A stretch of 32,878 nt of DNA. Source: Thermodesulfovibrionales bacterium (lineage in GTDB: Bacteria > Nitrospirota > Thermodesulfovibrionia > Thermodesulfovibrionales > UBA9159). Position numbers and translations under genes: made by a program. This document shows positions 7,079-32,470 of the stretch, one piece after another. Position 1 is the stretch's first letter, and the number at the start of each line of letters is the position of its first letter. Below the pieces are notes generated by a model that was not told the origin of the DNA, made no database searches, and worked only from the letters and a program-made list of their open reading frames with translations. The stretch covers positions 68,396 through 101,273 of the forward strand of contig DASRZP010000063.1 of the NCBI GenBank assembly GCA_035686305.1, in the 5' to 3' direction.

Positions 7079-8089
7079 ATGAAAGTATTTCTTAAGATGG
7101 TCTTTGTACTGGCAGTTGTGTTGTCTTTCACCTCGGTGAATGCGGCGGAAACTCTTAACGGAGCAGGAGCATCATTCCCTTATCCGGTGTATTCTGCCTG
7201 GGCCTTTGACTATAACAAAGTAGCGGGAGTGCAGCTCAACTACCAGTCGATCGGCTCAGGTGGCGGTATCAAACAGATCACTGCGAGGACGGTCGATTTC
7301 GGAGCGTCCGATGCCCCTCTGACCACTGAAGAGTTGAACAAGGACGGTCTTCTTCAGTTTCCTGCGGTGATGGGGGGGGTTGTCCCCGTAGTGGCGATCC
7401 CTGGAGTGAAGGAGGGCCAACTCAGGCTCGATTCCGACGCGATTTGCAAGATCTACCTTGGGGATATAAAGCACTGGGATGACAGCAAGATCAAGTCCCT
7501 GAACCCTGGACTCAATCTGGCACATGATGAGATTACGGTCGTCCACAGGTCGGACGGTTCCGGAACAACCGCCATATTCACTACCTATCTGAGCGAACTC
7601 TGCCCTGACTGGAAGGATAAGGTCGGCGCCGGCACCTCGGTGAAATGGCCTGTCGGCATCGGCGGCAAAGGGAACGAGGGCGTTGCCAATTATACGAAGA
7701 GGACGCCGAACTCGATAGGATATGTCGAGTTTGCGTACGCGGAGCAGAATAAGCTCGCCTATGTGCTTCTCAAGAATCCTGCAGGCAATTTTGTGGAGCC
7801 CAATTTCAAAACCTTTGAGGATGCCGCGGCCACCGCCAATTTTGACCCCAAGAAACATTTTCATCTCTGGCTCGTCAACGCGCCCGGCAAGAACGCCTGG
7901 CCCATAGCCGGAGCAACCTTTATTCTCCTTGCGAAAGAAAAGACGGATTCCAATAAGAAAGTGGTCGCTTTTTACGACTGGGCTTTTAAGAACGGCGACA
8001 AGAAGGCGAATGAACTCGTTTACGTGCCCCTTCCAGCCTCTTTGAAAGACAAGATACGGGCTTACTGGAAGGCAAACGGTCTGCAATAG
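7079..8089 (+). CDS. pstS: Phosphate ABC transporter substrate-binding protein PstS
   Basis: This 336-aa periplasmic protein captures inorganic phosphate and delivers it to the PstC-PstA channel. A Sec signal peptide spans about residues 1-22 (basic MKVFLK, hydrophobic core, SVNAA cleavage region). The mature start LNGAGASFPYPVYSAW is the PstS signature for phosphate binding, and IGSGGGIKQ, DFGASDAPL and HRSDGSGTT form the other ligand loops. Length and order fit the family. The ATG has AAGGAGG five bases upstream. It heads pstSCAB-phoU and is preceded by two Pho-box-like promoters, so induction under phosphate limitation is expected. Confidence 0.98.
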   Translation: MKVFLKMVFVLAVVLSFTSVNAAETLNGAGASFPYPVYSAWAFDYNKVAGVQLNYQSIGSGGGIKQITARTVDFGASDAPLTTEELNKDGLLQFPAVMGGVVPVVAIPGVKEGQLRLDSDAICKIYLGDIKHWDDSKIKSLNPGLNLAHDEITVVHRSDGSGTTAIFTTYLSELCPDWKDKVGAGTSVKWPVGIGGKGNEGVANYTKRTPNSIGYVEFAYAEQNKLAYVLLKNPAGNFVEPNFKTFEDAAATANFDPKKHFHLWLVNAPGKNAWPIAGATFILLAKEKTDSNKKVVAFYDWAFKNGDKKANELVYVPLPASLKDKIRAYWKANGLQ

Positions 8090-8103
8090 ACTGCCGTATT
8101 GAA

Positions 8104-8136
8104 GGGAGGGCAGGTAAACCGGCCCTCCTTTTTTTC
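8104..8136 (+). terminator. Intrinsic terminator or attenuator between pstS and pstC
   Basis: GGAGGGC (8105-8111) pairs with GCCCTCC (8122-8128), extended inside by GGT/ACC, and is followed by seven T residues. It lies 15 bp after the pstS stop and before pstC. Partial termination here would give more pstS than transporter mRNA. Confidence 0.8.
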
Positions 8137-8174
8137 TTTCTGAGCATGGATTATAATAATACGTCGAGGATTAC

Positions 8175-9116
8175 ATGGCGACATCTGCAAAGAAGAATCC
8201 CATTGATACAATCTTTTCTCTTGTTACCGCAGCGGCATCGCTTACGGTAATCATTCTCATCATCGCCATCCTCTTTGAACTTTTTCGTGAATCGTCTCCT
8301 GCCATGGATAGATTCGGCGTCTGGAAATTCCTCTCTTCCACCGACTGGAACCCCGTCAAGGAATCATTCGGCGCTCTTACGAACATTTATGGAACGGTCC
8401 TTACGACGCTGCTGTCATTGGTGATGGCCATACCGGTTGCAATGGGCATCGCCATCTTCGTAACCGAGGTCTCACCCAATTTTCTGAAAGGGCCCATCGG
8501 GATTGGTATCGAGCTCCTGGCTGCAATACCGAGCATAATCTACGGCATGTGGGGCCTCTTCACGCTTTCTCCCATAATGAGCGGATACATTGAGCCCTTC
8601 CTGAAGAAGATTCTTGAAGGAGTGCCGATTGTCGGCGTCCTTTTTCAGGGGACCCCGATGGGGATCGACATACTGACCGCGAGCATAATCCTGAGCATTA
8701 TGATTATCCCCTTTACCGCGAGCATATCGAGAGACTCCTTTAATCTTACGCCTGCCGTTGTGAAGGAATCGGCATACGCCATCGGAGCAACGAAATGGGA
8801 GGTTGTGAAAGACGTTGTCATGCCTTATTCCAAACTTGGAGTATTTGGAGGCATTGTCCTCTCCCTCGGGAGGGCCCTCGGCGAGACCATGGCAGTCGCC
8901 TTTGTCCTCGGAAACAATCACAGAATTACGACATCGCTTTTTGACGCAGCCGCGACAATAACCGTCACCCTCGCCAATGAATTTGCCGAGGCAGATAAGG
9001 ACATATATCTCTCCTCCCTCTTCTATCTTGCATTGGTGCTCTTCATGATGAGTTTCATAACCCTCGCCATAGCCAAGTTCTTTCTCCTGAAAGCGGAAAG
9101 GAAATACTCGCGATGA
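8175..9116 (+). CDS. pstC: Phosphate ABC transporter permease PstC
   Basis: This 313-aa inner-membrane permease forms half of the phosphate channel. About six hydrophobic helices are visible, beginning at residues 17-38. The central motifs GIELLAAIPSIIYGMWGL and, near residue 235, SLGRALGETMAVAFVLGN (the permease EAA-type loop that contacts PstB) are typical of PstC. The ATG follows GAGGA by four bases. Its last bases overlap the pstA start as ATGA, indicating translational coupling. Confidence 0.97.
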   Translation: MATSAKKNPIDTIFSLVTAAASLTVIILIIAILFELFRESSPAMDRFGVWKFLSSTDWNPVKESFGALTNIYGTVLTTLLSLVMAIPVAMGIAIFVTEVSPNFLKGPIGIGIELLAAIPSIIYGMWGLFTLSPIMSGYIEPFLKKILEGVPIVGVLFQGTPMGIDILTASIILSIMIIPFTASISRDSFNLTPAVVKESAYAIGATKWEVVKDVVMPYSKLGVFGGIVLSLGRALGETMAVAFVLGNNHRITTSLFDAAATITVTLANEFAEADKDIYLSSLFYLALVLFMMSFITLAIAKFFLLKAERKYSR

Positions 9117-9952
9117 CGAGGGAACGATGGAGAAAAGCCGAAGGATTTTTCGCCCTTCTATTGAGCACCCTTGCCGCTTTCCTGGGCCTCTTCTGGCTTA
9201 TCTTCATTCTTGGCGACGTGCTTGTGCATGGAGTGAAGGCCCTCAATCTGGGTCTCTTCGTGAACGATCCGGTTCCCCCAGGAGTTGAGGGAGGCGGCTT
9301 GAGAAATGCCTTTACCGGACAGCTTCTCATAACCTTTTCTGCGACCCTGATCGGTGTGCCGATAGGAGTGCTCGGAGGCACATTCCTCGCAGAGTATGCG
9401 CGCGGTCACAGGATAGCCAGGCTCATCAGCGTTCTCGCCGACATCATGGTCAGTGTTCCATCCATTGTTATCGGCACCTTCATCTATGCTATTCTCGTCA
9501 AACCAATAGGTCATTTCAACGGCTGGGCAGGGGCAGTCGCGCTCTCGATCATCATGATCCCCGTCGTTCTCAGGACTACGGAGGATATGCTGTCCCTGGT
9601 GCCATGGACATTGCGGGAAGCGGCCTTTGCGTTGGGAGCCCCCTATTATACGGTGATAACGCAGGTGGTTTACCGGGGAGCGGCCACGGGCATCCTGACC
9701 GGTATCCTGCTTTCGATTGCCCGTGTTGCAGGAGAGACCGCTCCCCTGCTGTTTACGTCATTCAACAATGCATTTTTCTCGGTCGACATGAAGCAGCCTG
9801 TGGCCTCCCTGACGGTCACCATTTTTCAGTATGCCATGGGGCCTTATGAAAATTGGCATCAGCAGGCATGGGCTGCATCATTTGTCATTACCCTATTCAT
9901 CCTGCTCATCACAATCGCCGGACGGCTCATCATTAAATGGAGGTACAAATAG
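9113..9952 (+). CDS. pstA: Phosphate ABC transporter permease PstA
   Basis: The second permease of the phosphate channel, 279 aa, has about six membrane helices. [11 protein letters not shown] and the loop [17 protein letters not shown] are PstA signatures. It overlaps pstC by four bases and shares one base with the GTG start of pstB; its last codons also carry the GGAGG ribosome-binding site for pstB. Length is slightly short but within the family range. Confidence 0.97.
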
Positions 9953-17835: not shown

Positions 17836-18675
17836 TCACCGAAGAGCGGCATGGTTCACCCCATGAAATATTCTCCTCTCCTCAGCCTTGCGGAAAAGTT
17901 CTTCTATGGCACGCATCCCTTCATTCCCCAGGTCGAGAGAGTACTCATTCACATAGAGCTTGATATGCTGCTCTATCACGTCATCAGCGAGTTCCTGGGA
18001 ATGAGACTTGATATAGTCTCTCGTCTCTTCACGGTGAGAAAAGGCGTATTCGATACTCTCTCTGATGAGGCCTTCGAGGGTCTTTATCACTTCACTGCTG
18101 AGGCTCCTCTTGGCGATGATGCACCCAAGGGGGATCGGGAGTCCGGTCTCAGTCTCCCACCACTTCCCGAGGTCCTCTATCTCGACGAGGCCATGAGAAG
18201 GATAGGTGAAACGTGATTCATGAATAATCAGCCCCGCATCTGCGTCGCCGCGCCTGACGGAATCCATGATCATGTTGAAGGGCATGACAACAACGTTCTC
18301 TGCCAGTGCAGGGTCGAAGAGCTGAAGGAGGAGAAAGGCGGTTGTGAGATTACCGGGGATCGCGATTCTCTTCCCCCTCAACTTTTCTGCAGAAGTCCTG
18401 TTTTTCGTCACGAGCAGGGGCCCGCAGCCTCTGCCGATGGCCCCGCCGGAAGAGAGCAGGGAATACCGGTCCCGGAGATATCCATAGGCATGAAGGGAGA
18501 CCTTTGTTATGTCCAGCTCGGAATTCAGCGCCTTCCGGTTCAGCGTCTCGACATCGAGGAGGATCTCCCTGAACGAAAAACTGCCGGTCTCGATCTTTTT
18601 GTGCACAAGGGCATAAAAGATGAACGTATCGTTCGGGCAGGGCGAATAGCCGAGGGTAAAGGTCTGTTCCGCCAT
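17836..18675 (-). CDS. mqnD: 1,4-dihydroxy-6-naphthoate synthase MqnD
   Basis: The 279-aa enzyme converts cyclic dehypoxanthinyl futalosine to 1,4-dihydroxy-6-naphthoate in the futalosine route to menaquinone. The N-terminus LGYSPCPNDTFIFYAL, the middle DITKVSLHAYGYL and LLSSGGAIGRGCGPLLV, and IHESRFTYP with the catalytic His152 are characteristic. The C-terminal sixteen or so residues (ERRIFHGVNHAALR) run into the CBS-domain remnant, so this end may not be the ancestral one. A GGAG-containing site precedes the ATG. Another pathway gene, mqnB, lies near the right end of the window. Confidence 0.93.
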   Translation of the reverse strand: MAEQTFTLGYSPCPNDTFIFYALVHKKIETGSFSFREILLDVETLNRKALNSELDITKVSLHAYGYLRDRYSLLSSGGAIGRGCGPLLVTKNRTSAEKLRGKRIAIPGNLTTAFLLLQLFDPALAENVVVMPFNMIMDSVRRGDADAGLIIHESRFTYPSHGLVEIEDLGKWWETETGLPIPLGCIIAKRSLSSEVIKTLEGLIRESIEYAFSHREETRDYIKSHSQELADDVIEQHIKLYVNEYSLDLGNEGMRAIEELFRKAEERRIFHGVNHAALR

Positions 18676-20228: not shown

Positions 20229-23200
20229 TCATTTCTCGCTTAATGTGCCTATAAACTTCACAACCTCCAACTTGGTATCCAGTTCCGCTGCCTCTCCATA
20301 TCTCAGCAGTGTTCGATAGGTGGAAGGCAGGAGCGGTACCCCTTCCCGCATGTTACGCTCACGCGCCCTGAGTTCGGCCTCACCGGGGATAAGGATCTCA
20401 TGCGCATTTTGTGCGAGCTCTCCCGACTTTGTCTGCTCGATCATACGATCGACTCGTGCCATAAATTCGGCTGAAGACATGAAGAGTTCGGGGTCGATCA
20501 CCATAAAAAAATGGCCGAAGTCTGGTGGCCTCAAGTCCTTGTACATCTGTTCTCGGCTATGGTCATGGCAGAAGCCCGCCCCGCTCAGAACACCTGCCAT
20601 CGCCTCCATGACGAGCGCGAGACCATATCCTTTATGCCCCCCGATTGGCACACCAAGGCCAGCTGCGAGATCGGCCGGATCTGTTGAGGGACGACCAAAA
20701 TGATCGAGGATCCACCCCGGCGGTAACATTTTACCTTCAGCAAGTTGCAAGCCGATCTTTCCTCGTGGCGCAACACTCATCGCGATGTCCAGGAGAATCG
20801 GGTTGTAACGCGACGCTGGAATACCCACACCCAGCGGGTTGTTCCCGAATGTTGGAGTGACCCCACCGGTAGGCGCAAGGATCACCGGGCCGTTCGTAGT
20901 GCAGAGCCCTATCAGACCTTGCTGTACGGCGAGCCAGACATAATGTGCGGCAGCTCCAAAGTGGTTGGAGCGACGTGCACTTACTATGCTCATACCCGCC
21001 TGCTTTGCTTTTTGAATCGCCGTTCGCATAGCAATAACCCCAACCCACTGCCCGGGGCCGTTGTCTCCATCAATCCGCGCACTGATTGATGTCTCATGCT
21101 CTATCCGGATCCGGGGTTGTGGATTCGTCACGCCCGAACTGATACGCCGGGCATAACGGGGGATGCTGTCCATATTGTGCGTTCGTTGCCCGCGCAGGCT
21201 GGCCTCAAGCTGAACTTCTGTGACAATCGCAGCCCCTTCAGGCGACAAACCGGCCCTTTCCAACGCCTCACGGCCATAGGCCCGCAGGCTTTCCGCTGTC
21301 ACAAGGACCAAAGGCTTTACCGCGTCCTTCGCCATTGTTTCCTCAGGCTGAACCGAAGCGGTCGCCGTCTTCGGCTCGGTCCGTACATTGTGTGCGTTTT
21401 CAGAAATCCTCGCCAGTTCAATAACCGTCTGGTACTGGAAAAGCTCCTTAAGGGTAAGCTGCAACCCTCCCCGATTTGCGAGGCTGATTACTTGAATACT
21501 CAGAAGAGAATCCCCTCCCAATTCAAAGAAGTTATCCTCAATGCCTACACGGTCCACATTCAGAACCTGCCTCCATATGTCTGCCAGTGTCTTCTCGGCA
21601 TGGGTTCGCGGTTCGATAAATGCCCCTAAAAGTTCTTGCCGTGCCCTCTCGGGGTTGGCACAAACTGAGCCTGCCGCCAGGGCGGAAAGGGCTTTTCGAT
21701 CCAACTTCCCATTCGGTGTCAGCGGTAATGCCTTAAGTGCCACAATCATGGATGGAACCATATAACCCGGTAGCGAGCGCTTCAGAGACTCTCTCAATTC
21801 TACTATCACCCGCTTAGGAATCCGCAACACTTCTTTCGGAACTTCAGAAGCAATGGCATGATGAACACTCTCTCTAGGGACAACAAAGGCCACCAATTTT
21901 TGATTGCCTCCAGTGGCCGGCATACCACTCTTTACCATCACGCGGGTACCCTCCCCCGCTACCTCACCGGGAGTAATGACTGCGCTTTCACCCACCCACG
22001 GATGTTTTCGTAAGGCTGCTTCAATTTCCCCTGGTTGGATAAGGAAGCCGCGTAGTTTGATTTGAGAATCGTAGCGGCCGATGAGCACAATGTTTCCATC
22101 CGGCAGATAACGCGCCGTGTCACCGGTCCGGAAGAGTCGGGCTCCAGGGGCATCACTAAAGGGGTCAGACACGAACCGCTCCGCTGTCAGTTCCTGCTGG
22201 TTGAGGTACCCCCGGCCCACTCCAGCTCCACCGATATATACCTCGCCATAGACGCCGACTGGCACAAGCTGTCGGAGGGCGTCCAGGATATATACTCGCG
22301 TATTCTCAATCGGACGACCGATGGGGACGCCATTTGCGGCTTCAGCGCCAGGGTGATGGATATGATACATGCTCACGATACCCGTCGTTTCGGTCAGCCC
22401 ATACATGTTGATCAACTTCGCACCGCTTCGAAAGCAGGACGCCCACTCCGCTGGGATATCCGGGGACAGCGTTTCACTGGCGGAAAGGATCAGCCTCAGT
22501 CTACTGTTGAATGCAGCTGCCCTTGCGTCAGGCGCCAGACGACGCGCCATTTGAATACAGCTACGCCAGTACGACGGAACGACATCAAGAATCGACACGT
22601 GATGTTCACGAATGAGATCAAACAGAACTAAGTGGTCATGGATTTGATCGGTTGTGGCTATGACCACTGCTGCGCCGCAAGAGAGAGGGAGTAAAAATTG
22701 GCGAATGGATGAGGAGAATGCGAATGAGGCAGTGTGGAGATATCGATCCTCAACCATAATTCCTAACGCCTCACGCATTGCATGGACATAATGGCAAAGG
22801 TTGGCATGCGTGATCATCACACCCTTGGGGGAGCCTATTGAACCTGAGGTATAGATAACATATGCTAAATTCGTTTCTGTCGCACTGCTTTCAGGGTTTT
22901 GTTTGCTCTTTCCGTCAATAGCTTGGCAACCCGCTTCCAGACACACCAGTATCGGGGGGACGGGCTCTGAACCTTCGATTTCAGATTCCTTCTGACCAGA
23001 CACCCAAGGCGAAGTCCCGGGTCTGGCATTCAAGGCGGAAAACAGATGCTCTCCCGTGATAAGAACCGATACCTTGGCATCCCTCATCATAAAGACAAGA
23101 CGCTCTGACGGGTATTCTGGATCAAGGGGAAGGAAAGCACCTCCGGCCTTTAATACCCCCAGTATGGCCATCGCCATCTCCGCAGAGCGGGGAAGGATGA

Positions 23201-26200
23201 TCCCCACCAGTTTTTCTGGCCCCACTCCGAGTTTCTTGAGGTGCCAAGCCAGTTGGTTGGCTCTGCTATTCAGCTCGTCGTACGTGAACCTCTCATCTCC
23301 ACATTCGACTGCCAAGGCATTTGGTGTCTTGGACACCTGGTCTTCAAACACGTGATGGAGACAGAGATCGAAGCGATATGAATTTTCCGTGCGATTCCAC
23401 TCAACCGCCTGCTGGCGTCTCTCTGTGTCATCAAGTAACGGAAACTCCGAGAGACGCCTCTCGGGGTTGGCAACAATCCCTTCCAAAAGTACCTTGAAAT
23501 GCCTTGCAACCCGCTCGATTGTGTCCGCCTCGAACAGGTCGATATTGTATTTCCACAACCCCTCCAGCCCTTGCTTGGTTTCCGCAAGGTACAGGGTCAG
23601 GTCGAACTTCGCGGTTCCGCTAACTGTTCTGAAAGGATGGGCACTCAAACCCGGCGCAAGTTGAAACGGCAGTCCGGTCGTCCATATATCGTCCGACTGC
23701 TTAACCTCTCGTATCTCATTTTCTGTGGTTTCTGACCCAATCCCTATGTCAGGAAGATTCTGGAAGGCGAACATCACCTGGAATAAGGGTCCATGGCTCG
23801 GATCCCGCTCGGGCTGCAGCACCTCCACCACTTTTTCAAATGGCAGATCCTGGTGCGCGTATGCGCCCATGGCTGTTATACGCACCCGAGCCAGCAGCTC
23901 TCGGAATAAGGGATTTCCGGACAGATCATTTCTCATAACCAGCGTGTTCGCAAAGAACCCTATCAAAGGCTCTGTCTCGACACAAGGCCGGTTGGCGATC
24001 GGGACGCCTACTGGGAGATCGCTTTGCCCCGTGTAACGGAAAAGCAAGGTTTGGAATGCTGCCAGCAACGTCATGAAGAGTGTCGCTTTTTCACTCACGC
24101 TCAACGCCTTCAGCCCCTCGGTCACAGTGCGAGAGACTGTCAATTGGAGTGTCCCTCCTCGATACGTCTGCAAAGATGGACGAGGGCGGTCGGTAGGCAT
24201 CCCAATCACAGGAGGAACATTCTGGAGCTTCTCCTTCCAGTAGGCAATCTGCTTTTCTAAGACCTCTCCTTGTAGCCACCCTCTCTGCCAGACCGCAAAA
24301 TCACCGTATTGGACGGCCAGTTCCGGGAGCGGCGACTCGCAGCCTGACAGAAATGCCTCATAGAGCATTGCCAGTTCCCGGTGCAGCACTCTCATGGACC
24401 AGCCATCTGAAATGATGTGGTGCATTGTAAGTAAGAGAATGTGCTCTTCAGCGTCCAGCCCGATGAGTGCAGTCCGAAATAGAGGCCCGTGAGCAAGATC
24501 GAATGGCCGGCTGACCTCCTCGGCCCCCAGACGAAGCGCTTCGGCCTTCCGGTCGGAAGGTGGCAGCATCGTCAAATCCGTGATCGGTAGTTTTGTTGTC
24601 TCTTCTTTGACAATGACCTGTACAGGCTGCCCGCCGACCAAATGAAATGTGGTACGCAATATTTCGTGTCGGCGTCGGATTTCGTTAAGACTTTGCTCCA
24701 GTGCATCTTTGTTCAACCTGCCTTTGAGCCATAGTGAGGCGGACATGTTATAGGCGATGTTGCCGTGCTCGAACTGTTCAAGGAACCACAGCCGATGCTG
24801 AGCGAAAGAGAGAGGTAAAGGGCCTGTCATGCGCCTCCGTGGGATGCTCGCTGCTCTGGCGCTGGATAGTGTTTCTCTCGAAGATCGCTGGTCACACAGT
24901 ATGTACCCTTGGGATAAATGACCGGTCGTGCTTCGGGTGATCAGCTTCGCCAGTTGGGCAATGGTAGGATTTTTGAAAAAACTCTCCACAGGCAGGTCGA
25001 CCTGGAATTCGTCCCGCAGCCGGACGACAACTTGGCTCGCAGCCAATGAGTGGCCGCCCAAGAGGAAAAAATTATCGTGAATACCAGGGCAGTCGATTTT
25101 CAGGACACCGGCCCAGATATTTACCAACCTCTGCTCAATAAGCGAACGCAGAGGTTCAGGATCACAATGTTCTGGTTTCTGTTGGGCATTCAACTCCGTC
25201 AGACGTAGTTGCCGAGCAAGATTGGCACGCTCCAGTTTCCCTGTAGGACCCTTCGGGATGTCATCCACGATTACTACGTGATCCGGGACTTTGAAATAGG
25301 CAAGGTGCGTCGCGACAAAGCTGCGGATCTCCTGAATCAGATGATCGGGCTGGTCTGCTCTAATGCCCGAATACCCAAAGACTTGAAAATCCGGCTTAAG
25401 AACTACCGCAGCAGCGACGTTCTCGCCGAGCACGGGATGGGGGACCTTAAAGGTGACGGCCTGTGAAACTGCCGGGTGGTCCATCAGAACCTGGTCCACT
25501 TCCCTCGGTGAGATCTTCTCACCTCCCCGGTTGATTATCTCCTTGAGACTGCCGGTGACGAAAAGATAGCCATCCATATCCATGTATCCTATGTCTCCGG
25601 TACGGAACCATCCGTTGACAAAAGCGTCCTGCTTGGCCATGGTATCGTTTCCAGGGGACTGTGCAACGTTTGCACCACGGATCACGATCTCTCCTGGCTC
25701 TCCCGGCGGCATAATATTCCCCAACTCGTCCCAAATGGCGACCGCGGGTCCCGCGGCTCGACCTACTGAACCGGCCTTGCGCGGATGAGGGGGCAGCCGG
25801 TTACTCGCAATTTGAGGGGACGCTTCGGTCATCCCATACGCTTCAATAAACGGCGCACGGAACAGCCGCTCCAATTCAACCATCACAGGCAAAGGCATTG
25901 CTGCGGAGGCTGAACGAATAAAACGCAACTTGGCGCGCGCTGTGATCTCGGGATAGTGAAATGCGTTTTCGAGAATTATCTGGTGTATCGTCGGTGCTGC
26001 TGAATACCACGTTGGATGAAAAGAATCAAGACACTCGAAAAACTGCGCAGCGGAAAAGCCGGAGGGGTAGACCACACTCGCACCCGCTGCAAGTGAAGCA
26101 AAGAGCGTGCTCAGACCGTGGATGTGAAACAACGGCATCACACTGAGACAACGGTCGCTCTCCGTCAGCTGAACCGCAGCGCAGATGTTGTGTGCAGCGA

Positions 26201-26828
26201 CGCAAATGTTCTGGTGCGTCAGCCTCACTCGCTTTGGTCGAGCAGCAGTTCCTGACGTGTAAAGCGCCAGCGCCGCATCGTCCGGCTGGGACAAGCCATG
26301 CGTTATTGGAGCTGATACACTCCGACCGGCAAGGGTGAAGAGACCTGCCTCAGCTTCGGCCTGCGGAATCAATTCGAGAACGGGCACGCCTCGCGATCGG
26401 GCTACCGCCGCCGCAGTAGCCTCATAGCCTTGCAATACGATCAACGCTCTTGCATTTAAATCTCCGAGATAGAAGTCCATTTCGCTCGCGCGATAGGCGG
26501 GGTTAAGAGGTGCGCATACAGCGCCTGATGTAATAGCAACAGAGGCCACAGCCATCTCCGGCCCATCCGGAATCACCATTGCGACACAGTCCTCCCTACT
26601 CACACTCAGGGAATGAAGCGCCTCGAGAACGTACTCCACTTGGCGGCTCAAACGGCCGTAAGTCAGAGGTCTTCTTCCCGGGGCAAGGATGAAACTGGCG
26701 TTGGGGTTTCGCTCGGCCTGTTCGCGAACCAGCTGAAGGAGACAGTACTGCCGGGCCGGATCCCCCATTTGGACAGGATCAGCGTTCATAGTTCGCTCCC
26801 GCCTCTTCATTGCTCGCGCGTGCTGCAT
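20229..26828 (-). CDS. NRPS: A(acyl-CoA-synthetase-like)-PCP-C-A-PCP fused to a malate/lactate dehydrogenase-2 family reductase
   Basis: This 2199-aa megasynthase has six domains. (1) Adenylation 25-545 resembles oxalyl-CoA synthetase (AAE3) with YGMTEASPQ (331-339), TGDIGY and Lys531; its P-loop reads SGTAARPKR, slightly degenerate. (2) PCP 560-635, Ser594 in GGHSL. (3) Condensation 668-1115, LCL-like, with intact HHIISDG (803-809). (4) Adenylation 1158-1715 with YTSGSIGSPKG and Lys1708; the Asp that binds amino groups is Ser1372. (5) PCP 1735-1812, Ser1774. (6) Residues 1840-2185 form a whole Ldh_2 (AllD/YlbC-like) NAD(P)H reductase: SNHFG with His1956, TFGNNPLG, LLDIAMS and GGHKGYGLA. The ATG at 26828 has GGAGGAG upstream, inside the previous gene's end; ATG 26789 is an alternative start. 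No MbtH or carrier-activating transferase gene is near. Product unknown. Confidence 0.95.
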   Translation of the reverse strand: MQHARAMKRRERTMNADPVQMGDPARQYCLLQLVREQAERNPNASFILAPGRRPLTYGRLSRQVEYVLEALHSLSVSREDCVAMVIPDGPEMAVASVAITSGAVCAPLNPAYRASEMDFYLGDLNARALIVLQGYEATAAAVARSRGVPVLELIPQAEAEAGLFTLAGRSVSAPITHGLSQPDDAALALYTSGTAARPKRVRLTHQNICVAAHNICAAVQLTESDRCLSVMPLFHIHGLSTLFASLAAGASVVYPSGFSAAQFFECLDSFHPTWYSAAPTIHQIILENAFHYPEITARAKLRFIRSASAAMPLPVMVELERLFRAPFIEAYGMTEASPQIASNRLPPHPRKAGSVGRAAGPAVAIWDELGNIMPPGEPGEIVIRGANVAQSPGNDTMAKQDAFVNGWFRTGDIGYMDMDGYLFVTGSLKEIINRGGEKISPREVDQVLMDHPAVSQAVTFKVPHPVLGENVAAAVVLKPDFQVFGYSGIRADQPDHLIQEIRSFVATHLAYFKVPDHVVIVDDIPKGPTGKLERANLARQLRLTELNAQQKPEHCDPEPLRSLIEQRLVNIWAGVLKIDCPGIHDNFFLLGGHSLAASQVVVRLRDEFQVDLPVESFFKNPTIAQLAKLITRSTTGHLSQGYILCDQRSSRETLSSARAASIPRRRMTGPLPLSFAQHRLWFLEQFEHGNIAYNMSASLWLKGRLNKDALEQSLNEIRRRHEILRTTFHLVGGQPVQVIVKEETTKLPITDLTMLPPSDRKAEALRLGAEEVSRPFDLAHGPLFRTALIGLDAEEHILLLTMHHIISDGWSMRVLHRELAMLYEAFLSGCESPLPELAVQYGDFAVWQRGWLQGEVLEKQIAYWKEKLQNVPPVIGMPTDRPRPSLQTYRGGTLQLTVSRTVTEGLKALSVSEKATLFMTLLAAFQTLLFRYTGQSDLPVGVPIANRPCVETEPLIGFFANTLVMRNDLSGNPLFRELLARVRITAMGAYAHQDLPFEKVVEVLQPERDPSHGPLFQVMFAFQNLPDIGIGSETTENEIREVKQSDDIWTTGLPFQLAPGLSAHPFRTVSGTAKFDLTLYLAETKQGLEGLWKYNIDLFEADTIERVARHFKVLLEGIVANPERRLSEFPLLDDTERRQQAVEWNRTENSYRFDLCLHHVFEDQVSKTPNALAVECGDERFTYDELNSRANQLAWHLKKLGVGPEKLVGIILPRSAEMAMAILGVLKAGGAFLPLDPEYPSERLVFMMRDAKVSVLITGEHLFSALNARPGTSPWVSGQKESEIEGSEPVPPILVCLEAGCQAIDGKSKQNPESSATETNLAYVIYTSGSIGSPKGVMITHANLCHYVHAMREALGIMVEDRYLHTASFAFSSSIRQFLLPLSCGAAVVIATTDQIHDHLVLFDLIREHHVSILDVVPSYWRSCIQMARRLAPDARAAAFNSRLRLILSASETLSPDIPAEWASCFRSGAKLINMYGLTETTGIVSMYHIHHPGAEAANGVPIGRPIENTRVYILDALRQLVPVGVYGEVYIGGAGVGRGYLNQQELTAERFVSDPFSDAPGARLFRTGDTARYLPDGNIVLIGRYDSQIKLRGFLIQPGEIEAALRKHPWVGESAVITPGEVAGEGTRVMVKSGMPATGGNQKLVAFVVPRESVHHAIASEVPKEVLRIPKRVIVELRESLKRSLPGYMVPSMIVALKALPLTPNGKLDRKALSALAAGSVCANPERARQELLGAFIEPRTHAEKTLADIWRQVLNVDRVGIEDNFFELGGDSLLSIQVISLANRGGLQLTLKELFQYQTVIELARISENAHNVRTEPKTATASVQPEETMAKDAVKPLVLVTAESLRAYGREALERAGLSPEGAAIVTEVQLEASLRGQRTHNMDSIPRYARRISSGVTNPQPRIRIEHETSISARIDGDNGPGQWVGVIAMRTAIQKAKQAGMSIVSARRSNHFGAAAHYVWLAVQQGLIGLCTTNGPVILAPTGGVTPTFGNNPLGVGIPASRYNPILLDIAMSVAPRGKIGLQLAEGKMLPPGWILDHFGRPSTDPADLAAGLGVPIGGHKGYGLALVMEAMAGVLSGAGFCHDHSREQMYKDLRPPDFGHFFMVIDPELFMSSAEFMARVDRMIEQTKSGELAQNAHEILIPGEAELRARERNMREGVPLLPSTYRTLLRYGEAAELDTKLEVVKFIGTLSEK
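21333..21344 (-). promoter_or_regulatory. Internal in-frame ATG with ribosome-binding-like site before the Ldh_2 domain
   Basis: Inside the NRPS gene, codon 1832 is an ATG (21335-21333) with GAGG five bases upstream. It lies exactly in the linker between the last PCP and the reductase domain. It could start a free reductase of 368 aa, about the usual size of stand-alone Ldh_2 enzymes, or be a relic of a gene fusion. Confidence 0.3.
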
Positions 26829-26831
26829 AGA

Positions 26832-29800
26832 TCACTCCTCCGGCATCCGCCCAACGGTCTGTGGGGACGAGACGCAGATGTCAACCAGCGCAGAACGGCC
26901 GCGCCGCACTTCGCTGAGCGCCTCACGGAGTACCGACCTGAGTTTTGCAGGATCGTCCACTGTCCTGGCCCACAGACCCATTGCTTCTGCCATTTTTGAA
27001 TAGAGTGGCGGCTTTGGCAGATCGCATCCCGGATAGTTCCCTGTCCGCCTCGCGTATCCGTCAGGAGCTATGCCCAGGATCGCTTCGGTGGTGGCAGCAT
27101 ATGCCTGATTATTGAAGACAATCGTCAGGAACGGGCTTCGGGACTGCTCGGCTGCCCAGTAGGCTGCGAGGGGAGAACCGAATATCCAGGAGCCGTCTCC
27201 TAAAGTGCAGATGATGGTTTTGGAGGGGGATGCAAGCTTGGCTCCAAAGGCTGCTCCAAGGCCCCAACCAAGGCCGGACCCGAGGCTTTGATAGTAAGTT
27301 CCGGGCGTGTCCAACTGCAAATAACGCCACAGGACTTGGTTGTTACTGACAGCTTCGCTGACGATTACCGTGTCCTCATCCACAATCTCGCTCAAGCAGT
27401 ACGCAGCCCATTCAGGCGCGATCGGCTGTCGCGCCGCCAGACCGAAAGCTCTCTTCTGCCACCTCGCCCTTTGCGCCTGGTGTTGGGCGGTCAGGACATG
27501 GCGGCGTCTTTCAATCCGTGTGCGATCTGCACGGCTCAGCAACCGCTCGACCTCCTCGGCCAAGGCCGACATGGCATGGGACGAGTCGGCCTGAATGGCA
27601 AGATCCACTGGGAATCCCCAGATTGGAATATCCCGTTTGAGAGGGTCAATGTCCACATGGATTATGCGGCATGCAGACGGTGGTCTATATTGCGCTGGCA
27701 CCCATGGAACGTCGTGATCGACGATCAGAACGCAGTCAGCTCGGTGCAAATGGGAACCGGCCGAAAAACCGAGATGAAGAGGGTGACCAGAAGGAAAATT
27801 GACTCGGTGGCGCGACTCCACTACTGGTGCAGCCAGCGTCTCCGCGAGTCTAACCAGAGAGGCAGCAGCCTTGGGATTACGGCCCGCATAGGCTACAAGA
27901 ATCAAAGGTCTATCGGCCTCGATCAGCCACTTTGCTGCCCGGGAGAGGCTGTCAGGGTCAACCGCCAGCGTCGAAATCGCCGGCGCACGATTGGCATCAA
28001 CAATAGGGGTTTGCACGGTCTGCACAAGCACTTCCCTGGGGAGAGTCAAATATACCGGCCCAGCTGGCTCCGTCCGGGCTACCTGGAACGCACGCTGCAC
28101 CGCTAAGTGAAGGTTTTCCCGGCAGGTCAGCTCGTAATGCCATTTAACATAACCGTGCACAATGCTCTCCTGGCTGAACTGCTCTTGTATCCAGTGGATA
28201 TAGCTATCACGCCCACCTGGGAGACTGCCATCAACGGTGTACGGGGCCCTCCCCGCACAGACGACTACTCCGGCGCGGCCCCGCTGTGCGTTATGCAGGT
28301 TTGCGCCGATGTTCTGGGTCCCTACGTCAACGTGAACTAGGACTACCTGGGGCCTACCGCTGACCATGAAGTAGCCATGCGCGGCGGCCATAGCCACGGA
28401 CTCGTGTAGACAGAGGATCAGTTCGGGCGACCGGCGCCCCTGGACTTTAAACTTTGCAATGGATTCCTGGATCGGCACAGTGTCGGTCCCGGGATTGATA
28501 AAGATGTAGTCGACAGCGCAAGCGTTCAGCGACTCGAGATACCCGTCGGCTACGTTGTCAACCCCAGGCGGCTGTTGTATTCCCAGGTTGAGATGCTGAA
28601 GTTCTGCATGGCTGTCCTCCGTTGACATGGTCTTGATCTCCTTGAGTTCTCTGTTGATTTTCTCTGCCAGCATCCTCACATGCGGTTCTTTCAAAATACT
28701 CATATGATGTCCCGGAATGGACTGGATTCCCACACACTCTGCAACGCTACTCCATTCCATATCCTCGCAGGACGGAATTAACCGCTGAGCTCTTGCCCGA
28801 TAAAGGGTAATACGGCCGGGATATTTTTGAGGGGTATATCTTCTCAGCCACCGAATTATTTCCCGTAAGTTATCTATCGATTCTTCAGATACCTCGGTAG
28901 GGTTATAGGGTTTGCGGAGAAAAGTCTTTTTCATTTTATTGTTGGCAATCGTCCAATAATGGCTCAGCCAGAAGGGGAGCGTGTAATATAACCACCAAGG
29001 AAGGTTTCTCGCAAAGGCCCTTATCATTGCCGCTTCCCATGGTTTTGGTTTCTCCTTGGAACGATCCGGGCAAGAAGTATCAAGAATTCCGAGGAAGAGG
29101 ACATTAAGGTTCATCATCTGAAGCTGCCTCGCCATCTCAAATGCCACAAGTCCACCGGATGAAAACCCGATCAGCATGAAAGGTCCATTAGGTATTTTCC
29201 CGCGTAATTCACTGACATACTGAAATGCTATTTCTTCTATGGACCGACAAAGTACATCTTCAGCACCCTCTAACCCGTAGACCGGTTGGTCCGGATCCAG
29301 GTATTTTGCAAGGTGACGATAGATTAACGTGCTACCCATGACATCAGCCACGCAAAAAAGCGGAGGGTTAGACCCCTTTGGCTGTATGGAAACCAGGGAG
29401 GATTGAGACTCCGGTTCTTGATAATTGGTGATTACGGCGGCAAGCTTTTCTACAGTGGGCGACTGAAAAATAGCAGAAAGAGGAATCCTTATCCCAAATT
29501 CTCTTTCTATCCTTCTGAAGAGCTGAACGACCATAAGAGAATGACCACCCATATCAAAGAACGAGTCTTCAATGCCCACGGTATCAATTTGGAGCAGCTC
29601 AGCCCAGATTCCCGCCAAGACCTCCTCAATCGCATCACGCGGAGCGACAAACGGGCGAGCAAGTGTCGGTCGTGTGCGCCACGGGCGGCTGGCGGTGAAG
29701 TGGGCAGCGAGCGCCGCATGATCGACCTTGCCGCTTGGCGCACGCGGGAACTTCTCCCGCATTACGAAGACAGAAGGGATCATGTGCTCAGGCAGTGTCT

Positions 29801-31412
29801 CAGAAAGAGAGCGCCTGAGATCGCTGACGGTTGGTGCTGGCAGACGAGCTGGCACGAGGTAGGCTACGAGACGCTTCTCCTCGGGTTCCGTTATCTGCTC
29901 GTGATTTCCCGTCTCGCCACTCCCTGTGGGTGTCAAGTTGTCGCTTTTGGCGTGGAGATGAAACCGCCCGGAAGGGTTATCCTCTACCGTCCCCAGCGCA
30001 AGAACAACTGCCTCTGTGAAGGTGCCCAAGTTGAGCAGGGCAGTTTCCACCTCAATTGGTTCGATCCGGTGCCCACGGACCTTCACCTGGAAGTCCTTCC
30101 TTCCCAGGTAGAAGAGACAGCCGTCTGAGCGCATCCGTCCCATATCCCCTGAGAGATAGATTCGCGCCTCTCCGCCGTTCGGATCGGGCAGGAATCGCTT
30201 CCGGGTCAATTCGGGTTGGCGCCAGTAGCCTAGTGAGAGGTAGCGGCTCTTGACAGCAATCTCCCCGACCTCGCCGGGACCGACCTTCTGTCCGTTCTCG
30301 TTGAGCAAGAAGATCTCTGTCCCTTCAGTTGGGTAGCCGACCGGAATAAGCGCGTCGGTGAACTGGGTTTGTTTATCGATGAAATAATGGCAGTCACTCC
30401 CCGTTTCCGTCGCGGCCAGATTAATCAGCATCAGGCATTGGGGTGAAAGATACCGGCGGTAAAGCTCAACATCGCTTCGGTAGACCGGTTCCCCTCCAAA
30501 GGTCACCAGGCGGAGCCGGGGGAACTGATCTTCCCCGGTGAGAGAATGTCTCCAATCTCGCAGAAGCCGCCGCCCATTGCTGATCGTGATCTCTTCTTGC
30601 TCAAACCACCGGGGCAGGTCTTCCAGTCCCACCGTCCGCAAATCCAATGGATGGAGCGACGCACCGTTCAGCAGAGCGGGGAAAATTCTCCGCAGTGATG
30701 CGCTAGAGCTACAGGGGTGTAACAGAGCCAGTCGATCATCCCGGCAAACATGGAAGCTGTTCGTAACCCGTAAGACTTCGAACAAAAGGTTTCGGTGGTT
30801 CTGGAGGACTCCCTTAGGGGTTCCTGTCGAACCCGAGGTATAGATAATGTTAACACCATAATCGGGTGAAATCGCAATAGCCGGATTCGTGGAGGAGTAA
30901 TGAGAACTCGGCGTGTGTAGATTGATCCTTGGGATCTTTCGTGGCGTTAGTTCAGCTGCGGCAGACATATTCCGGGAGTCGGTGAGAATGAGGCTGGTCT
31001 GGGAATCCTCGATTATGTAGGAAAGACGAGGCCGTGGAAACCGGGGATCGAGAGGCACATATATCTTCCCTGCCTTCAACACCCCCATTATTGCAGCTAC
31101 TACCCATGCACCCTGATCCAGTAACAACGCAACCGGTTCCTCGCCTTCGCCGTATTGTTCCAGAATGGCGTCCGCGATCCGGTTAGCTGCCTTGTTCAGC
31201 TCGGCGTACGTGAAACTGCGGTCATGACTTCGAACGGCAAGCCGGTCAGGGTATCGCAGCACCTGTTGCTCGAAGCGAGACGGGATTGACTGCTTGATAT
31301 CCTCTAGGTCAAAGGGCTCAAAGTTATTCGTCGGTGTTACCAGTCGGGCCCTCTTCACTGGAGTGATATCGGAACCACTTGGGATGTCTAATTCTCTCCT
31401 TGCTGATTCCAA
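26832..31412 (-). CDS. NRPS-like A-PCP-TE protein fused to an acetolactate-synthase-like ThDP enzyme
   Basis: The 1526-aa protein has four parts. Adenylation 45-570: YTSGSTGTPKG (191-201), LAATETG, GRKDFQVKVRGHR and Lys562; the amino-group-binding Asp is replaced by Ser237. PCP 590-665, Ser625 in GGHSL. Thioesterase 682-930: Ser751 in GFSSG, Asp778 and His903. Then 940-1520 is a complete ThDP-dependent enzyme of the acetolactate synthase / benzoylformate decarboxylase type, with catalytic Glu1004 in LCLHESVA and the cofactor motif GDG-x26-NN (1405-1435). There is no condensation domain. The start codon is TTG (31412) with no strong ribosome-binding site, so the exact N-terminus is uncertain. 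Gene 2 of the operon follows after 3 bp. Fungal A-PCP-TE enzymes such as TdiA and AtrA use 2-oxo acids; the fused ThDP enzyme fits such substrates. Confidence 0.95.
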   Translation of the reverse strand: MESARRELDIPSGSDITPVKRARLVTPTNNFEPFDLEDIKQSIPSRFEQQVLRYPDRLAVRSHDRSFTYAELNKAANRIADAILEQYGEGEEPVALLLDQGAWVVAAIMGVLKAGKIYVPLDPRFPRPRLSYIIEDSQTSLILTDSRNMSAAAELTPRKIPRINLHTPSSHYSSTNPAIAISPDYGVNIIYTSGSTGTPKGVLQNHRNLLFEVLRVTNSFHVCRDDRLALLHPCSSSASLRRIFPALLNGASLHPLDLRTVGLEDLPRWFEQEEITISNGRRLLRDWRHSLTGEDQFPRLRLVTFGGEPVYRSDVELYRRYLSPQCLMLINLAATETGSDCHYFIDKQTQFTDALIPVGYPTEGTEIFLLNENGQKVGPGEVGEIAVKSRYLSLGYWRQPELTRKRFLPDPNGGEARIYLSGDMGRMRSDGCLFYLGRKDFQVKVRGHRIEPIEVETALLNLGTFTEAVVLALGTVEDNPSGRFHLHAKSDNLTPTGSGETGNHEQITEPEEKRLVAYLVPARLPAPTVSDLRRSLSETLPEHMIPSVFVMREKFPRAPSGKVDHAALAAHFTASRPWRTRPTLARPFVAPRDAIEEVLAGIWAELLQIDTVGIEDSFFDMGGHSLMVVQLFRRIEREFGIRIPLSAIFQSPTVEKLAAVITNYQEPESQSSLVSIQPKGSNPPLFCVADVMGSTLIYRHLAKYLDPDQPVYGLEGAEDVLCRSIEEIAFQYVSELRGKIPNGPFMLIGFSSGGLVAFEMARQLQMMNLNVLFLGILDTSCPDRSKEKPKPWEAAMIRAFARNLPWWLYYTLPFWLSHYWTIANNKMKKTFLRKPYNPTEVSEESIDNLREIIRWLRRYTPQKYPGRITLYRARAQRLIPSCEDMEWSSVAECVGIQSIPGHHMSILKEPHVRMLAEKINRELKEIKTMSTEDSHAELQHLNLGIQQPPGVDNVADGYLESLNACAVDYIFINPGTDTVPIQESIAKFKVQGRRSPELILCLHESVAMAAAHGYFMVSGRPQVVLVHVDVGTQNIGANLHNAQRGRAGVVVCAGRAPYTVDGSLPGGRDSYIHWIQEQFSQESIVHGYVKWHYELTCRENLHLAVQRAFQVARTEPAGPVYLTLPREVLVQTVQTPIVDANRAPAISTLAVDPDSLSRAAKWLIEADRPLILVAYAGRNPKAAASLVRLAETLAAPVVESRHRVNFPSGHPLHLGFSAGSHLHRADCVLIVDHDVPWVPAQYRPPSACRIIHVDIDPLKRDIPIWGFPVDLAIQADSSHAMSALAEEVERLLSRADRTRIERRRHVLTAQHQAQRARWQKRAFGLAARQPIAPEWAAYCLSEIVDEDTVIVSEAVSNNQVLWRYLQLDTPGTYYQSLGSGLGWGLGAAFGAKLASPSKTIICTLGDGSWIFGSPLAAYWAAEQSRSPFLTIVFNNQAYAATTEAILGIAPDGYARRTGNYPGCDLPKPPLYSKMAEAMGLWARTVDDPAKLRSVLREALSEVRRGRSALVDICVSSPQTVGRMPEE
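28626..28643 (-). promoter_or_regulatory. Internal in-frame ATG with strong ribosome-binding site before the ThDP domain
   Basis: Codon 929 is an ATG (28628-28626) with AAGGAG (28643-28638) nine bases upstream. It lies in the linker after the thioesterase. Translation from here would give a free 598-aa ThDP enzyme, the normal length of stand-alone relatives. Confidence 0.4.
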
Positions 31413-31765: not shown

Positions 31766-32470
31766 TCATACAATCTTCAGTATCTCCATTACTGCTTTCT
31801 GGCAGTTCTCTGCCGCGAGCGGGATATTCCATTTGTCCCTGTCCCGGTCCTCCACGATATTGCTGATGCCCCGTATCTCGAGCATCGGGACTCCATACAA
31901 AGCGCAGATCTGTGCAACGGCAGCGCCTTCCATGTTCTCGCAGATGGCATGGTACTTCTTCTTGAGTTCGACGGCACGTCTCCTTGTCCCAGTGCATGTA
32001 GAGGTCGTAATGAAGGTGCCGGACTTGATGGGTGCAATACGCCCGCCAATCTTCAAAACTCTTTTCAGAAGTCTCTTGTCGAGCAAAAATTCATTGAAGA
32101 AGGTCTTCCTCCCCTTTCTTAGGAGCGGGATACCGACGAACTCGGTTCCATGGAAGCCATAACCTGTCTGAACCCCCTCATCGCCGTAAACCTCTTTTTC
32201 AGCGACTGCCACGTCACCAACCTCAAGTCCAGCGGAGGGATAGGCGCCTCCGATGCCGAAGAGGATTATGATATCAGGTGAGAATTCTTCGATCAGGATT
32301 GTTGCCGCATGTGCCGCGTTTGTCTTTCCCATGCCGGAGATGATATACGCGGTTTCTCTTAATCCGATGGTACCTCTGTAGAGTGTTCTGCCTGAAAGGG
32401 TCCTCTTTTTCCTAATGCGGTCAACGAGTACCTTCCCTTCTTCGAGGACTGATGATATAAGCCCAAGCAT
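31766..32470 (-). CDS. mqnB: Futalosine hydrolase MqnB
   Basis: The 234-aa enzyme of the purine-nucleoside phosphorylase fold removes hypoxanthine from futalosine in menaquinone synthesis. FGIGGAYPSAGLEVGDVAVAE with EVYGDEGV, and ENMEGAAVAQICALYGVP with the following RGISNIVEDRD, are typical of MqnB and distinguish it from MTA/SAH nucleosidases. It starts 21 bp after the proA stop and is probably co-transcribed with it. An MTA/SAH nucleosidase identity is the main alternative, less likely given mqnD in the same window. Confidence 0.88.
   Translation of the reverse strand: MLGLISSVLEEGKVLVDRIRKKRTLSGRTLYRGTIGLRETAYIISGMGKTNAAHAATILIEEFSPDIIILFGIGGAYPSAGLEVGDVAVAEKEVYGDEGVQTGYGFHGTEFVGIPLLRKGRKTFFNEFLLDKRLLKRVLKIGGRIAPIKSGTFITTSTCTGTRRRAVELKKKYHAICENMEGAAVAQICALYGVPMLEIRGISNIVEDRDRDKWNIPLAAENCQKAVMEILKIV

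Follow-up and report, generated by a model that had tools for sequence, protein, structure and literature searches.

The window analysed here, a stretch of 32,878 nucleotides from the genome of a Thermodesulfovibrionales bacterium, carries two nonribosomal peptide synthetase (NRPS) genes on its minus strand, gene Y followed by gene X, with 3 bases between them (Table 1). The Pfam domains of gene Y are AMP-binding, PP-binding and Thioesterase, then a three-part ThDP enzyme; those of gene X, whose open reading frame has no internal stop, are AMP-binding, PP-binding, Condensation, AMP-binding, PP-binding and Ldh_2. By domain annotation, gene X has no thioesterase (TE) and gene Y no condensation (C) domain. 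The genome has three PPTase-family matches above the cut-off. The NRPS pair lies between genes at 17836-18675 and 31766-32470 (both on the minus strand) that belong to the futalosine menaquinone pathway, a member of the menaquinone-biosynthesis family PF02621 and a futalosine hydrolase.

Table 1. Genes and domains of the NRPS pair, in window positions.
Feature	Position	Strand	Remarks
NRPS gene X	20229..26828	-	2199 aa, AL-PCP1-C-A2-PCP2-Ldh_2 (Pfam)
Ldh_2 reductase domain	20307..21302	-	aa 1843-2174; full-length Pfam match and alignments
PCP2-to-Ldh_2 variable linker	21303..21392	-	aa 1813-1842; identity 5-28% among the three copies
PCP2	21393..21611	-	phosphopantetheine Ser1774; GGDSL at 1771
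Adenylation domain A2	21669..23348	-	code SSRDLAMGIK, without Asp235; EntF as control
Condensation domain, gene X	23412..24818	-	active-site motif HHIISDG
PCP1	24939..25133	-	GGHSL
Loading acyl-ligase (AL) domain	25200..26744	-	nearest solved structures are oxalyl-CoA synthetases
NRPS gene Y	26832..31412	-	1526 aa, A-PCP-TE-ThDP enzyme; start codon uncertain
ThDP-dependent enzyme domain, gene Y	26877..28556	-	PRK08327, benzoylformate-decarboxylase-like
Thioesterase domain, gene Y	28650..29363	-	GFSSG
PCP of gene Y	29430..29621	-	Pfam
Adenylation domain of gene Y	29700..31274	-	code SARNTGNGSK, without Asp235

The last domain of gene X matches the PF02615 profile over positions 1-332 of 333 (E 7.9e-109; 364.2 bits against a cut-off of 38.8 bits) and is the sole Ldh_2 match in the genome. 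An earlier note on this DNA had described an apparently intact reductase of this kind fused to the end of an NRPS at 20229-21345, behind a last PCP with Ser1774, and had singled out His1956. The alignments place both residues where the note had put them, the interval is correct for the domain together with the linker, and by sequence the reductase does appear intact, with a near-full profile match and the catalytic His kept. Thirteen distinct PDB sequences are related to the domain, including archaeal malate dehydrogenase (1v9n), L-sulfolactate dehydrogenase (2x06) and AllD (4fjs); piperideine-2-carboxylate reductase, DpkA (1wtj), scores 130.5 bits, a relation of sequence only. The best NCBIfam model is the L-sulfolactate dehydrogenase (ComC) equivalog, with 234 bits against a cut-off of 500, and the AllD-type ureidoglycolate dehydrogenase models give 195.5 and 201.7 bits against cut-offs of 496.2 and 356. 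Membership in a named equivalog was rejected because the domain scores below every NCBIfam equivalog cut-off listed, and the proposed "AllD/YlbC/piperideine-2-carboxylate reductase family" is thus accurate at the level of the superfamily only.

The same fusion is present on two other contigs. Scanning genome contigs for six 8-residue patterns recovered one relative (L007), the Phycisphaerales MAG contig JAQGHK010000608.1, where a 2079-aa protein has the same domain order and is 49% identical to gene X over its whole length. The second relative (L056, from genome G546) emerged when 392 genomes of the phylum of L007 were searched with a profile; it also has the domain order of gene X, and its Ldh_2 domain is cut by the contig end. 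The threshold of E 1e-60 was passed by 17 of the 392 genomes, two of which, that of L007 itself and G546, contain the fused domain, the other 15 having open frames of 360-429 aa. Further samples yielded no other fused copy: for the window's genome they comprised 61 relatives and 395 genomes of its phylum (a count that includes this genome), for L007 61 relatives and 397 genomes of its class, and for G546 3 and 4 genomes. These samples overlap, their thresholds differ and the pattern scan missed G546, so that the count of fused copies is not a total. The fusion was not seen among the best 8 of 1184 plasmid records or the best 8 of 16 phage records, and a literature search, with most subscription journals outside its scope, returned no paper linking NRPS with the Ldh_2 family.

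In a tree of the 3 fused and 30 free Ldh_2 domains the fused copies are monophyletic (support 100/100); the long stem leading to them measures 1.71 changes per column, and the fusion has a single origin in this tree. The phylum samples of the window's genome and around L007 had no genome in common among those listed, which suggests, without proving, that the window and L007 belong to different phyla and that horizontal transfer has occurred.

Ldh_2 is the best conserved synthetase domain between the two complete copies. Its identity between the window and L007 is 71%, compared to 41-55% in the remaining domains of gene X; the corresponding values for L056 are 70% and 49-62%. Conserved columns were defined as those with the same residue in at least 85% of the 30 free enzymes, and all three fused copies retain that residue in 29 of the 38 such columns, both catalytic His included; the loss of cofactor-binding residues, which the earlier note had named as a refutation, did not occur. 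The catalytic residues His1884 and His1956, equivalent to AllD His44 and His116, are kept in 3/3 fused and 30/30 free enzymes, and Tyr52, Pro158 and Asp174 (AllD numbering) are likewise kept in every fused copy. AlphaFold run on a two-row alignment gave pLDDT 43 and pTM 0.38, and viral contigs yielded no relatives for this alignment.

It is very improbable, in our view, that the domain is structural or dead, or that the fusion is an assembly error. One residue speaks for a dead domain: Gly45, directly after the first catalytic His, is Gly in 30/30 free enzymes and Asn, His and Asn in the fused copies, a conservation that holds in this sample and is not a curated criterion of the family. Against this stand the high conservation and the two retained catalytic His, on which a degenerate domain was rejected; an assembly or frame artefact was rejected because three contigs from three genomes carry the same fusion.

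The SHGxxR loop of the free enzymes reads TH[NH]Mx[SD] in the fused copies, where Arg48 is replaced by Ser, Ser and Asp; Ser140 and Asp141 have become Gly and Pro in 3/3. For AllD, the study PMC3527362 reports that the carboxylate of glyoxylate rests on Arg48, near Ser140, and that the R48A and H116A variants are inactive. Since none of Arg48, Ser140 and Asp141 survives in any of the three fused copies, we favour action on a carrier-bound group over a free-acid role; of the two options offered earlier, reduction of a carrier-bound 2-oxoacyl group and supply of free 2-hydroxy acids, the former gains from these replacements. A substrate with its carboxylate engaged in a thioester bond would fit the changed loop, but this falls short of proof, because the three positions also vary in free relatives: Arg48 is found in 21 of the 30 and absent in 9, and positions 140 and 141 vary widely (Gly140 in 3/30, Pro141 in 3/30). 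In a comparison with five PDB sequences the missing Arg48 seemed decisive, but it carries less weight against the 30 free enzymes, and we lowered the claim correspondingly. No claim is built on AllD Met251 and Arg259, which fall in gappy columns aligned differently in two alignments. The residues suggest a reductase that is probably active and whose substrate entrance has been rebuilt.

Alternatively, the domain could use a small 2-oxo or 2-imino acid in free form, the fusion serving only to supply A2 with a 2-hydroxy (or cyclic amino) acid. The characterised family members named here act on free acids (PMC3527362 and PMC5695019), and an in-frame ATG, Met1832, begins the part resembling a free enzyme (the SD-like match before it is shorter than 5 bases). 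We nevertheless consider this scenario improbable, given that the AllD free-acid contacts are changed in all fused copies, that the fusion has been kept in three genomes, and that L007 has no Met near the start of the domain.

The adenylation domain A2 offers a possible source of a carrier-bound substrate. Its code is identical in all three copies and has Ser at position 235 in place of Asp235, which binds the alpha-amine of the substrate. The same extraction applied to EntF as a control gave DVWHFSLVDK, the known serine code. Together with the intact domain, the catalytic His and the conserved fusion, an A domain of this type lends the earlier interpretation partial support. From Arg239 and Asp278 of A2, the substrate may be an unusual one and perhaps carries a charge. 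Adenylation domains for keto acids typically replace Asp235, usually by an aliphatic residue, according to PMC10949194; the Ser of A2 departs from this usage and its code matches no known keto-acid code, both of which count against a 2-oxo acid substrate.

These results lead us to propose, as a reading with an even chance of being correct, that gene X encodes an NRPS with a terminal Ldh_2 domain acting in cis to reduce a 2-oxoacyl group on PCP2 before an ester is formed with the starter. In this scenario A2, lacking the Asp that holds the alpha-amine, would load a 2-oxo acid onto PCP2, which the flexible linker would allow to swing into the active site of Ldh_2. There a hydride from NAD(P)H would be transferred to C2, with His1956 and His1884 as acid-base residues, to give 2-hydroxyacyl-PCP2. 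The C domain would then transfer the acyl starter, possibly an oxalyl group, from PCP1 to the new hydroxyl and so form an ester.

The proposed chemistry has a parallel in the A-KR-PCP modules of depsipeptide synthetases (StsA and the cereulide and valinomycin synthetases), with which gene X shares an A domain without Asp235, a reductase in cis and a predicted reduction of a carrier-bound 2-oxoacyl to a 2-hydroxyacyl group ahead of ester formation. In StsA, as presented in PMC11355689, the A-KR-T module reduces a carrier-bound keto acid and the resulting hydroxyl forms the ester. Gene X would function like the KR of such modules but is not a member of that kind. It has no match to an SDR-type KR; its reductase is an Ldh_2 domain with a sulfolactate-dehydrogenase-like fold, unrelated to the SDR-type KR, and stands after PCP2, whereas the SDR-type KR sits inside the A domain. 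This placement, like the unfamiliar A2 code, weighs against the proposed 2-oxoacyl reduction. From the free Ldh_2 enzymes (AllD, ComC, DpkA, YiaK and type 2 malate dehydrogenase), with which it shares a full-length domain, His44/His116 and most conserved columns, the gene X copy differs in its fusion to an NRPS and its rebuilt loop.

The reaction could also run in the opposite direction, oxidising a carrier-bound 2-hydroxyacyl group or carbinolamide to a 2-oxoacyl group. AllD oxidises ureidoglycolate with NAD+ in the account of PMC3527362, and the ComC reaction is described as reversible in PMC5695019, but the A-KR-PCP precedent in PMC11355689 is reductive, and we regard oxidation as distinctly improbable.

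What the starter might be is indicated by the AL domain. Its best PDB relatives are three oxalyl-CoA synthetases, with 365, 364 and 312 bits, compared to 181 bits for the next, unrelated ligase; enzymes of this kind include AAE3 and Pcs60. A shorter construct with the same molecule name as these synthetases is also matched (229 bits), and the best NCBIfam model is the FadD7 family, with 386.9 bits against a cut-off of 650. Because of this resemblance oxalate may be the starter, and we consider it a good candidate; the AL domain differs from its nearest solved relatives in being followed by a PCP inside an NRPS. The two best free homologues of AL on plasmids are 50% and 49% identical to it (the next is 37%), and each adjoins a gene of the PanE/ApbA family; PanE of Methylobacterium extorquens is identified in PMC9485241 as an oxalyl-CoA reductase.

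The same observations give rise to the main competing explanation, namely that Ldh_2 reduces a carbonyl derived from oxalate instead of a 2-oxo acid loaded by A2. AL would load oxalate onto PCP1, and the oxalyl thioester, or the amide or ester present after condensation, would be reduced at the carbonyl beside the carboxylate to a glyoxylyl hemithioacetal or an alpha-hydroxyglycine-like unit. Such a route would mirror the pairing of oxalyl-CoA synthetase with oxalyl-CoA reductase in oxalate assimilation, as well as the action of AllD on oxalurate, which it interconverts with ureidoglycolate (reported in PMC3527362). An oxalyl unit would keep a free carboxylate, yet Arg48, Ser140 and Asp141 are lost in 3/3 fused copies, and Ldh_2 adjoins PCP2, not PCP1; we therefore think this explanation unlikely, though less so than action on a free acid.

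Taking the reduction of a carrier-bound group together with the candidate starter, we speculate that gene X represents a small two-gene NRPS family that would be primed with oxalate as an oxalyl-carrier thioester and would use Ldh_2 to reduce a carrier-bound 2-oxo (or oxalyl) carbonyl, a central-metabolism dehydrogenase having been captured once, lost its grip on free acids and become a non-homologous replacement for the SDR-type KR. This combined picture is tentative, and we consider it more probably wrong than right. Apart from the fusion, Ldh_2 members appear in this analysis only as stand-alone enzymes of metabolism, and the residue changes suggest that the fused copy may have been refitted for building blocks held on a carrier. 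If so, 2-oxoacyl reduction on an assembly line would have arisen twice in evolution, the second time out of a different fold and with a visibly rebuilt substrate loop. NRPS engineers would then gain a portable reductase of a new type, together with a route to ask how a free-acid enzyme learns a carrier-bound substrate. An NRPS primed with oxalate would also open an uncommon way into natural-product chemistry.

In all three loci gene X has a gene of type Y as its immediate neighbour, with the order of the two swapped in L007 relative to the window. The Y proteins are A-PCP-TE-ThDP in the window, A-PCP-TE in L007 (at 7194-9773, where the contig end is reached) and A-PCP in L056 (6272-8314), the tail varying from none to TE to TE plus ThDP. 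The code of the Y adenylation domain is identical in the window and L056; that of L007 differs (ASAHAARGHK). Because the ThDP part is absent from the Y of L056 and has no close homologue in the genome of L007 (the best is 28% identical), the conserved core is gene X plus an A-PCP protein.

The ThDP domain of gene Y contains the catalytic Glu and the GDG...NN motifs, and its best plasmid homologue is a free-standing protein of Thermomicrobium (47%). At its start, Met929 is preceded by a 6-base SD-like match, the sole one of at least 5 bases among 26 in-frame ATGs, which is no more than a hint. The plasmid A domain nearest to that of gene Y belongs to an A-PCP protein encoded on a plasmid of Nostoc sp. 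UHCC 0926 (locus L025, 17746-24896); this protein is 41% identical, lacks Asp235 and is followed by a C-A-PCP-C protein; none of the 9 ORFs annotated at this plasmid locus is an Ldh_2 partner. The genome of the window also contains a second NRPS locus (L057, contig C38, 356-9432) with genes for an A-PCP protein, a ThDP enzyme resembling acetolactate synthase/oxalyl-CoA decarboxylase, a protein of the PEP mutase/methylisocitrate-lyase family, and a C-A-PCP protein whose C-terminal ~400 residues are without a domain match.
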